64,000 bases of DNA from Anaeromusa acidaminophila DSM 3853 (GTDB lineage Bacteria > Bacillota > Negativicutes > Anaeromusales > Anaeromusaceae). The stretch lies in NCBI RefSeq assembly GCF_000374545.1, contig NZ_KB894583.1, forward strand, positions 1 through 64,000, in the 5' to 3' direction. The first letter of the stretch is position 1; every line of letters begins with the position of its first letter. The position numbers were made by a program, and so were the translations under genes. This document shows positions 4,351 through 61,027 of this stretch, one piece after another. The notes below the pieces were generated by a model. That model ran no database searches, had not been told where the DNA came from, and saw nothing but the letters and a program-made list of their open reading frames with translations.

Positions 4351-4386
4351 GGTTCCTCACTCTACTCACGCTGCTCTTGTTCAAAA
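4351..4386. repeat. R3 dispersed intergenic repeat unit (degenerate)
   Basis: The segment contains CTCTACTCACGCTGCTCTTGTTCAA. It matches the family core CT(C/A)TTGTTCAA that recurs in at least eight intergenic gaps of this window. It directly follows the nrfA terminator. Confidence 0.55.
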
Positions 4387-4421
4387 ATATATTCTGTAAC
4401 TCTCAATCAGGCCCTCGTGTG

Positions 4422-4556
4422 GACGTCGGTTGCCATGCCATCCATGGCATTTTCAGCGGAGACCGGCAATTATGCCATCCGTGGCATTGCCGGCATTAGG
4501 CACTTCACGTGCCGTCAGACGCATCCAGCGCCGTCGCCGGTTCTCCTGTTCAATTC
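4422..4556. repeat. R2 hairpin-array repeat, copy 1
   Basis: About 135 bases carry a series of small inverted repeats: GCCAT/ATGGC near 4432-4449, an 8-bp stem CCGGCAAT/ATTGCCGG at about 4463-4493, GGCAC/GTGCC near 4499-4513, and CGC-ATCCA-GCG near 4520-4531. It ends in an R3-like tail (GGTTCTCCTGTTCAATTC). A second copy lies at 57116-57246. In copy 2 the stem sequences differ but still pair. No protein-coding signal was seen. Confidence 0.8.
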
Positions 4557-4757
4557 TTGTTTTTCCTGTTTTCTCTCTGCTTCCTCTGGCCTTTTCTCTG
4601 TTGCTCTGTGTAAACCGAATATCCCCGTCGAGTCTCCCACTACTCCTGTTAAAACTCGTTTTTGCGTATCCCTCAGTCATGCCCTCCGGTTCTCCCGTGA
4701 CTCTTGTTCAATCCCCGTTTTTTCTCTATGCTTCGTTCCCTGTATTGTTGCCAGATG
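4557..4757. repeat. Degenerate R3 repeat cluster upstream of the YccA-like gene
   Basis: There is no gene in this part of the 4257-4799 gap. It is pyrimidine-rich and contains at least two further R3-like units: 4626-4658, which ends in ACTCCTGTTAAAACTCG, and 4670-4716, which contains CCGTGACTCTTGTTCAAT. Open frames of 110-120 codons across this stretch have no ribosome binding site or recognisable product and are treated as chance. Confidence 0.55.
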
Positions 4758-37726: not shown

Positions 37727-38059
37727 ACGAATCTCTCCTCTGCTTTTGGTTTCCAGGGGGCGGAAACAAAAAAATCGTCCCCTGGCATTGCTGCCAAGAG
37801 ACGAAAGCATACACTTCCGTGGTACCACTCTTGTTGATATGAACTATATCCACTCTGCAGGCGCGGCCTATAGGCGATGCCCCTCTCGTGATAACGGCGA
37901 GATGCCCGTTCACGCCTACTTGCAAATTGCTTTCGGGTGAATGCTCAAGGGTGAGTTTCGCCATGGCGCAGTACGCTGTTTCGCACCAACCAACAGCTCT
38001 CTGAAGTGACGCGGCGCTAGGCTTTTTCCCTTTCAATGCATTTTGTATATTAAAATCTT
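37727..38059 (-). promoter_or_regulatory. T-box riboswitch leader, specifier reads CTC (leucine)
   Basis: The minus strand shows stem I landmarks (AGAGAGCTGTTGGTTGGTGC, GAAACAGC) and then GCGAA-A-CTC-ACCCTTGAGC. The codon CTC followed by A fits the specifier position (37955-37953). Further on is the T-box/antiterminator sequence AGAGTGGTACCACGG (37832-37817). A perfect 13-bp terminator with seven T residues follows (37804-37768). Uncharged tRNA-Leu(GAG) would pair with the specifier and favour read-through. ACT (threonine) in an overlapping register is the main alternative, but the next base would then not be a purine. Confidence 0.88.
37768..37804 (-). terminator. Terminator of the T-box leader
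   Basis: TCGTCTCTTGGCA and TGCCAGGGGACGA pair over 13 positions around GCAA, followed by seven T residues on the minus strand. It lies 42 bases before the start codon. Confidence 0.88.
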
Positions 38060-41160: not shown

Positions 41161-41194
41161 TGCAAGTAAGCCGAAAGCTGGAGGCTTACTTGCA
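41161..41194 (-). promoter_or_regulatory. 12-bp perfect hairpin in the leader of the YdjC-like gene
   Basis: TGCAAGTAAGCC and GGCTTACTTGCA pair around a ten-base loop, 40 bases upstream of the start codon on the minus strand. It abuts the R1 element. Function unknown. Confidence 0.5.
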
Positions 41195-41340
41195 TTTGAG
41201 ACAAGATTTGCGCGCGCCTCGAAAAAGCGGGCTAAGTTGGCAGTTTCTTAACTCGCTGCGCTCAAACAAGCGAAACTGTATTCCGTCTTAACTCGCTTTT
41301 TCGTCCTGCGGACCGGCTTGCTCCAATAAAAGTCTCAAAT
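41194..41340. repeat. R1 structured repeat, copy A
   Basis: The 147-base element has ends ATTTGAGAC and GTCTCAAAT. An inner stem CGAAAAAGCGGG...CTCGCTTTTTCG and a core stem CAGTTTC/GAAACTG are visible. The same skeleton occurs at 44473-44620 and 56920-57067 with different stem sequences that still pair. Conserved loops include CTCGCTG.GCTCA and GTCCTGCGGACCG. A small GCGC-ATCCA-GCGC hairpin follows at 41369-41382. Confidence 0.82.
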
Positions 41341-44431: not shown

Positions 44432-44472
44432 TGCTTTTCAAGATTACGTGGTATAAACGGCGGTATGTTTGC

Positions 44473-44620
44473 ATTTGAGACAAGATTTCCGCGCGACTCG
44501 CAAAAATAGGAGTCGACGGCAGTTCCGCGAACTCGCTGGGGCTCAGACATACGGAACTTTTCTCCGTCGTTTCCTGTTTTTGCGTCCTACGGACCGTCTT
44601 GCTCCCCAAAAGTCTCAAAT
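44473..44620. repeat. R1 structured repeat, copy B
   Basis: The ends are ATTTGAGAC/GTCTCAAAT. The inner stem pairs CGCAAAAATAGGA with TCCTGTTTTTGCG, and the core stem pairs AGTTCCG with CGGAACT. Sequence related to copy C starts earlier, at about 44436 (TTTCAAGATTACGTGG, TAAACGGCGG). The tail CCCTAGGCGCGTCCAGGGCC (44648-44667) and an R3 end (CTCTTGTTCAA) follow. Apart from this, the gap 44375-44777 holds a terminator and a promoter but no gene. Confidence 0.82.
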
Positions 44621-44743
44621 ACAATCATTGTCGCTGGCGCAACCAACCCTAGGCGCGTCCAGGGCCATCGCCGATTCTCTTGTTCAATATCTTCAGGCTT
44701 AAGAATATTTTTGAAAAAGAGGACTGCGCGCGGAAGGGTTTAT

Positions 44744-56879: not shown

Positions 56880-56919
56880 ATTTTTCAAGATTATGCGGAA
56901 TAAACGGCGGCATAACTGT

Positions 56920-57067
56920 ATTTGAGACAAGATTTCCGCGCGACTCGCAAAAATAGGAGCCGCCGGCAGTTCCGCGAACTCGCTGGCGCTCAGACATACG
57001 GAACTTTTTTCCGTCGTCTCCTGTTTTTGCGTCCTGCGGACCGTCTTGCTCCAAAAAAGTCTCAAAT
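56920..57067. repeat. R1 structured repeat, copy C
   Basis: The ends are ATTTGAGAC/GTCTCAAAT, with a 14-bp inner stem CGCAAAAATAGGAG/CTCCTGTTTTTGCG and core AGTTCCG/CGGAACT. It is about 90 percent identical to copy B. Similarity to B begins at about 56882, 38 bases upstream of the left end. Minus-strand reading frames across B and C look alike only because the DNA is repeated. Confidence 0.85.
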
Positions 57068-57115: not shown

Positions 57116-57246
57116 GACGTCGGTCCATGCCTTCCATGGCGTTTTTAGATGAGACCGGATGCTATGCCATCCCTAGCGCATCCGGCATTAGGTACATCAC
57201 GTACCGTCCCCTGCTTCCAGCACCGTCGTACTCCTGTTAAATTCCA
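57116..57246. repeat. R2 hairpin-array repeat, copy 2
   Basis: The order of motifs is the same as at 4422. The main stem here is CCGGATGC/GCATCCGG, where copy 1 has CCGGCAAT/ATTGCCGG: four pairs changed together. The next hairpin is GGTAC/GTACC against GGCAC/GTGCC. The small ATCCA-type hairpin is TGC/GCA against CGC/GCG. The tail is ACTCCTGTTAAATTC. An R3 unit follows at 57250-57292. No gene is seen in the gap 56788-57327. Confidence 0.82.
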
Positions 57247-60932: not shown

Positions 60933-61027
60933 TTACAAATTGGGCAAACTTGCTGAAAAGCAAGGACGCAAAGCCGTGGGTCTAAGGGCTGAAAAGTCTA
61001 GGATTGCCAGGTTGCTGCTTTTTGTGA
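60933..61027 (+). promoter_or_regulatory. c-di-GMP-I (GEMM) riboswitch aptamer
   Basis: Hallmarks appear in order: TTGGGCAAAC, the hairpin CTTGCT-GAAA-AGCAAG with a GNRA tetraloop, GGACGCAAAGCC, then GGGTCTAAGG and the closing GCCAGGTTGC. TTACAAA (60933-60939) and TTTGTGA (61021-61027) pair to close P1. This matches class I c-di-GMP riboswitches. GGTTGCTGC (61010-61018) is nearly complementary to GCAACAACC (61042-61050), the left arm of the terminator, so aptamer and terminator folds can exclude each other. Confidence 0.92.

Follow-up and report, generated by a model that had tools for sequence, protein, structure and literature searches.

A dispersed two-hairpin repeat with constant loops and variable stems, apparently a REP-like mobile DNA element not described before

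The hairpin array analysed here appears to be neither a gene nor a known RNA but an undescribed REP-like mobile DNA element. Its core is a 56-57-nt two-hairpin cassette in which loops and flanks (YYA...GTC) are constant and stems vary almost freely. Dispersed and nested in a carrier, the array is an interspersed palindromic repeat in the broad REP/MITE/BOX sense, outside described families, and we consider it fairly probable that it is a non-coding interspersed DNA repeat, a mobile hairpin of REP/MITE-like type. The strongest evidence for the core as a putative mobile module is an insert with the same ends in unrelated carriers, as read from aligned sequences. The elements form a natural family of hundreds of hairpins with constant loops, stems saturated with compensatory change, and matched empty and loaded sites. 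Two questions thereby become testable: what moves REP-like repeats lacking a transposase of their own, and what share of the compensatory change usually read as RNA selection arises at the DNA level.

Organisation of the array and its carriers

A check of the 64-kb window (the whole stretch of DNA analysed) located the hairpin arrays of both copies where a sequence-only reading had placed them, with all the motifs ascribed to them. Four consecutive main-stem pairs were said to differ with pairing kept, and the stems are indeed CCGGCAAT/ATTGCCGG and CCGGATGC/GCATCCGG; the parallel changes proposed for a second hairpin (GGCAC/GTGCC against GGTAC/GTACC) and a third (CGC/GCG at 4520-4530 against TGC/GCA at 57212-57222, around TCC loops) were also found. 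The picture of a two-copy array was sound as to the array and incomplete as to its extent, since there are dozens of dispersed copies, nested in a larger carrier repeat. The features in the window are as follows.

4414..4553, + strand: copy 1, a modular element of carrier 5' part (CCTC...), hairpin array and carrier 3' tail CGCCGGTTCTCCTGTTCAA (alignments; covariance-model match 4453-4547, 115.5 bits)
4426..4449, + strand: 5'-half remnant of a first type-A hairpin, GTCGGTTGCCATGCCATCCATGGC (by comparison with short-form copies GTCGGTTGC-YATGCCATCCATGGC-GCAACCGAC)
4463..4493, + strand: hairpin A of copy 1, stem CCGGCAAT/ATTGCCGG (4463-4470/4486-4493), inner stem GCC/GGC (covariation, DNA fold)
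4499..4513, + strand: hairpin B of copy 1, GGCAC-TTCAC-GTGCC, flanks TTA and GTC (covariation; small-hairpin stem/flank tally)
4518..4532, + strand: hairpin C of copy 1, GACGC-ATCCA-GCGCC, flanks TCA and GTC (4533-4535) (covariation; small-hairpin stem/flank tally)
44639..44687, + strand: degenerate third copy, with hairpin A 3' arm, CCCTA, hairpin C (GGCGCGTCCAGGGCC) and carrier tail CGCCGATTCTCTTGTTCAA (sequence)
57116..57241, + strand: copy 2, a modular element with carrier tail ACTCCTGTTAAA (covariance-model match 57145-57235, 89.6 bits)
57155..57185, + strand: hairpin A of copy 2, CCGGATGC/GCATCCGG (57155-57162/57178-57185), hexaloop ATCCCT (sequence, alignment, covariation)
57191..57205, + strand: hairpin B of copy 2, GGTAC-ATCAC-GTACC (sequence, alignment, covariation)
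57212..57222, + strand: hairpin C of copy 2, TGC-TTCCA-GCA (sequence, alignment)
4374-4711, 5831, 40201, 44677, 48931, 53185, 53236 and 57231, + strand: carrier motif CTCYTGTTMAA (window scan)

The cassette runs from GGCCG through stem A around a GCC-ATCCNT-GGC tip, CACTA, and stem C around an NTCCN loop to CGTC. Fixed parts are the hairpin A tip, NTCCN or NTCAC in the five-base loops, and the YYA triplet 5' and GTC 3' of each small hairpin. In the RNAalifold prediction, the GAC ahead of the hairpins also pairs with the GTC behind them, so that the hairpins form a closed junction. The short form reads hairpin A - CTA - hairpin C - GTC. In the window's genus an extra hairpin B is frequently nested into the cassette; this long form, shared by both window copies, consists of a hairpin A remnant, a nested unit (hairpin A, TTA, hairpin B, GTC) and hairpin C. 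The 3' arm of the remnant at 4426..4449 appears, on comparison with the short form, to have been replaced by the nested second unit. The hairpin A hexaloop of copy 1 is ATCCGT (ACGGAU on the minus strand), and its hairpin C stem (GACGC/GCGCC) holds a single A.C mismatch. As RNA, copy 1 folds mildly better than shuffles (z -1.3) and copy 2 clearly better (z -4.3). The third copy gives a weak covariance-model match (44615-44681, 15.4 bits). At the copy-1 locus, 4400-4580 of the window (G000) and G003:C49:68156-68336 are 99% identical, against about 91% for the flanks of other shared copies; recent transfer and strong local conservation are both possible.

The carrier in the window's genus is a pyrimidine-rich repeat that starts with CGTACCCTC and ends with CTCYTGTTMAA, with the array inside. 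The end motif occurs 11 times in the window, always on the + strand, where 0.07 would be expected by chance; it belongs to a larger pyrimidine-rich intergenic repeat family, CGTACCCTC...ACTCYTGTTMAA. At orthologous loci, G001 is loaded and G003 has the bare carrier repeat only (CGTACCCTCTGG / TTCTCCGATTCTCTTGTTCAATCTT), while G000 or G002 may be without both carrier and array. Bare carriers, CTTTAGGAC-GCCGGCAGAAGCC, are common in Sporomusa relatives, with the junction GGAC^GCCGGCAG, and the loaded carrier reads GGAC-[GGCCGAATTGC...GCGCGTC]-GCCGGCAG. A second, unrelated carrier (f26 lineage), AGTACGC-GTCGC, occurs without the core in over 100 copies across three genomes; its junction AGTACGC^GTCGC becomes AGTACGC-[GGCCGAGCGC...GGCCGTC]-GTCGC when loaded. 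This carrier (G053, G078, G086; L297-L320) is palindromic, about 115 nt long and present in at least 40 copies per genome, and the literature, as far as it could be searched, holds no description of it.

The sequence compared consisted of stretches surrounding the copies and of the orthologous sites. When empty and loaded carriers are aligned, the insertion points are exact and the insert ends, GGCCG...CGTC, are identical in the two unrelated carriers. The Sporomusa cassette junction has no target duplication; at the f26 junction a 3-nt GTC duplication is possible. Within a lineage every loaded copy occupies a single site in the carrier. The carrier may therefore account for subsequent spread, and the case for independent cassette movement accordingly rests on the same ends in unrelated carriers and not on many insertions. 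Spread within a genome would mostly be the work of the carrier, or of gene conversion among carrier copies.

Distribution and genomic context

A BLAST search with copy 1 gave 30 matches in its own genome, found the repeat in three congeners as well, and gave zero matches in 36 genomes from other families. The sequence-only reading had suggested a covariance-model search of this genome and its relatives; a model (R1) built from 22 copies having hairpins A, B and C gave 29, 39, 45 and 33 matches in the four congeneric genomes, 146 in total. At E <= 0.01 it matched 31 of 150 genomes, those four included, and reached other Negativicutes families, the weakest of these matches probably being due to chance. 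Sporomusa silvacetica has about 43 near-identical copies of about 150 nt. An exact pattern scan of 84,980 species returned 65 stretches, the majority from S. silvacetica and the others from Desulfosporosinus species and from unclassified Selenomonadales, Negativicutes and Bacillota MAGs. Sporomusa belongs to the Negativicutes, Desulfosporosinus to a different class, and on this distribution a Negativicutes genome is very likely the source of the window. The viral contigs, phages and plasmids searched held no match to the element, which leaves a phage or plasmid origin without support. A literature search for descriptions of the repeat found none.

Copies are intergenic and favour convergent gene pairs: by simple ORF calls, the neighbouring genes are convergent in 35 cases, tandem in 50 (28 + 22 by orientation) and divergent in 14, with no strand preference relative to genes seen. 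Few same-site copies are shared between species with flanks that are 85-95% identical. On the main contig of G001 (C2), 23 of 34 copies lie within 400 kb of dnaA, where 10 are expected, and G002 copies, on contig C1, are also nearer dnaA than expected (KS p = 2e-4). Match strands in G002 relative to dnaA position reveal no replication-strand bias, only the proximity to the origin.

A search for a mobiliser gave no candidate. G001, with 45 copies, has no Y1_Tnp gene, and no core matches lie near 26 Y1 transposase loci; a RAYT/Y1 transposase as neighbour or necessary partner is thus unsupported. In a single case, that of a G142 copy (C148), a Y1 fragment is found about 70 bp away. No transposase-like family recurs near copies, whose neighbours are mainly ABC transporters, response regulators and LysR paralogues.

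Other repeats occur as well. A separate dispersed repeat of about 150 bp with GGAGCAAGACGGTCCGCAGGACG lies at 41180-41332, 44458-44605 and 56905-57058, the last just upstream of array copy 2, and has many copies per genus genome. Repeats of the form GTCATTGCGAGCG(C/T)AGCG, which resemble CGTC-tagged REPs, are found near some copies (L043 1891-1908, L046, L064, L096, L109, L156, L167 and L263).

Compensatory change and the folded substrate

Two copies by themselves are weak evidence of compensation, and further copies strengthen that reading. Among the 22 copies from the genus, pairing holds in 94.4% of stem cells, both sides change in 11 of 21 pairs, and there are 47 double-change cells, compared with 12.8 in shuffled alignments (0/500 shuffles reach this); slid pairings lower the paired share to 24-50%. 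In 31 distinct cores drawn from many lineages, both sides change in 12 of 16 pairs (stem A 8/8, stem C 4/5), there are 102 double-change cells against 29.5 (again 0/500), and the covariation score is 0.559, compared with 0.165 after shuffling and no more than 0.10 when pairings are slid. In this set 97.2% of stem cells pair, a figure somewhat inflated because cores entered the set only if they passed a permissive pairing criterion (at least 5/8 and 3/5 Watson-Crick), which was not applied to the 22-copy set. In the five-base-pair hairpins alone, perfect Watson-Crick stems come in about 18 sequence versions. In the genus, stem variants and loop variants are linked in blocks (CAAT/ATCCGT, CGAT/ATCCTT, ATGC/ATCCAT), so the independent events are fewer than the cells counted.

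The sequence-only reading had taken such changes as a sign of selection on folded RNA or cruciform DNA. The hairpins are real and both substrates are open, with the evidence favouring DNA. Structured RNAs usually have an appreciable share of G.U pairs; here that share is about 1% (4 of 496 cells in the class-wide 31-core set). This low wobble, the lack of a preferred strand with respect to genes and the clean presence or absence at aligned sites favour a DNA-level element. Against a mobile-DNA reading stand the fruitless search for a mobiliser and an excess of A.C over G.T in the small hairpins (28 vs 11 in plus-strand letters; two-sided p = 0.009, the cells being non-independent), which would suit a minus-strand RNA, on which plus-strand A.C reads as G.U. 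Unpaired positions have a mild G>A excess (4.5% vs 3.2%). The conservation of loops across classes, also counter to the DNA reading, could reflect an RNA-binding protein.

If the element is mobile DNA, what matters would be its folded single-stranded or cruciform form. Loops and flanks would provide sequence-specific contacts for a trans-acting enzyme during replication (compare Y1/HUH transposases on REPs), and stems would be needed merely as complementary arms. A narrower proposal, which we advance tentatively and as rather doubtful, is that the 56-57-nt cassette moves as structured single-stranded DNA between unrelated carriers and is recognised only by the two loop tips, CACTA and the CGTC end, with stems free so long as both arms change together. 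Were this true, it would be among the smallest mobile elements known, with a new mode of recognition.

Compensatory change is no proof of selection, because replication template switching is documented to produce multi-base compensatory changes with the loop retained (PMC8794818). By quasi-palindrome correction one arm would be copied onto the other with no selection on the fold, the element being otherwise decaying repeat DNA. Compensatory changes spanning several bases at once, with scarcely a G.U intermediate, fit this explanation, as do the S. silvacetica stems, which flip from GCGC/GCGC to GCAC/GTGC with almost no intermediates. Alone, it leaves unexplained the loops, CACTA and GTC that stay invariant across Negativicutes and Desulfosporosinus while stems drift, and as a full account we regard it as unlikely; template switching may well work alongside a mobile-DNA mechanism.

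A quite unlikely alternative, in our judgement, is a minus-strand RNA that binds a CsrA/RsmA-type protein, with the repeats serving as scattered decoys or as sites in UTRs. The minus-strand versions of the core loops are a hexaloop, ANGGAU, and NGGAN; N is free in them, as it is in RsmE/CsrA sites, and GGA is the sole part fixed in both; the loop bound by RsmE is ANGGAN, and the SELEX consensus is RUACARGGAUGU (PMC7652899). The direction of the wobble excess agrees with the minus strand, and most element-rich genomes have csrA, a co-occurrence confounded with motility and genome size. However, hairpin B has a GTGAN loop without GGA, and G053, a MAG with 15 copies, has no csrA match. The rarity of G.U pairs and the absence of strand preference also tell against it, and CsrA binding does not require conservation of the linker and GTC.

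Very improbable is a modular, BOX-like repeat whose main role would be to stabilise or terminate transcripts at the 3' ends of genes: its modular build with an optional middle module, the enrichment between convergent genes and a Sporomusa minus-strand end of hairpin then TTATCTTAT would fit, but the window's genus has no T-run after hairpins, such effects are by-products in known repeats, and loop conservation is left unexplained. Two coding-related ideas were discarded. A minus-strand micro-ORF (ATG-GCN-TAR, hairpin A) is broken in several lineages, and the CTA/TTA/TCA triplets, reverse complements of stop codons, were judged a positional coincidence.

Relation to described repeats and RNAs

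The expectation that the array would fit no known RNA class was borne out by two scans of Rfam 15, which gave only chance-level matches and none above the gathering threshold (RsmW, minus strand, 15.4 of 52 bits). Among repeats, CGTC-tagged REPs (Di Nocera et al. 2013, PMC3733652) are similar in being short extragenic palindromes with heterogeneous stems and no dedicated transposase, sited between unidirectional and convergent genes. A CGTC motif beside the hairpin C stem recalls their tag; in core copies it follows that stem, its C being part of the stem. The described CGTC families have stems of 8-9 bp that start with AT, loops of 4-5 nt and a CCA-type tail, and are mostly head-to-head dimers. 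In contrast, the present stems are of 5 bp (C) and of 8 bp with a 3-nt asymmetric bulge (A), without initial A-T pairs or a CCA tail, and two different hairpins with invariant loops stand in the same orientation within a cassette embedded in carriers. Neither Negativicutes, Sporomusa nor Firmicutes is named in the text of that paper.

GTAG REPs and REPINs with RAYT transposases (PMC3116915, PMC3733652) are likewise non-autonomous, hairpin-forming, extragenic and amplified within genomes, and a tetranucleotide-like motif (YTAG) ahead of the hairpin recalls their tag. Unlike in those families, the GTAG/GGAG tag, the inverted doublet and a RAYT beside copies are all absent here; hairpins B and C are flanked by CTA, TTA or TCA 5' and GTC 3', with no GTAG/GGAG. 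BOX elements of Streptococcus (PMC3049150), compared in architecture only, are similarly modular, with fixed ends, optional middle modules and insertion into other repeats. They vary in the number of like boxB modules, whereas adjacent small hairpins in the genus copies share a stem in 0 of 34 pairs, partly because B and C have different preferred stems.

CsrB/RsmZ-type sRNAs also carry a series of hairpins with GGA loops, a feature seen here on the minus strand in hairpins A and C and missing from hairpin B; they differ from the present elements, which occur as dozens of dispersed copies with no promoter noticed. Integron attC sites and IS200/IS605 ends resemble the element in being single-stranded hairpins that are recognised by their structure and have certain unpaired positions fixed. 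No attC core sites (RYYYAAC/GTTRRRY) were noticed in it, and an association with integrase or transposase is absent. Membership among MITEs fails on terminal inverted repeats and target-site duplication. Because the definition of GTAG REPs fails on the tag and that of CGTC REPs on stem and tail, and those of MITEs and Rfam families fail as well, the element is best described as REP-like and outside described families.

Elsewhere in the window, two RNA elements scored above their Rfam gathering thresholds, namely a T-box leader at 37794-38045 (- strand) and a c-di-GMP-I riboswitch at 60933-61019 (+ strand).
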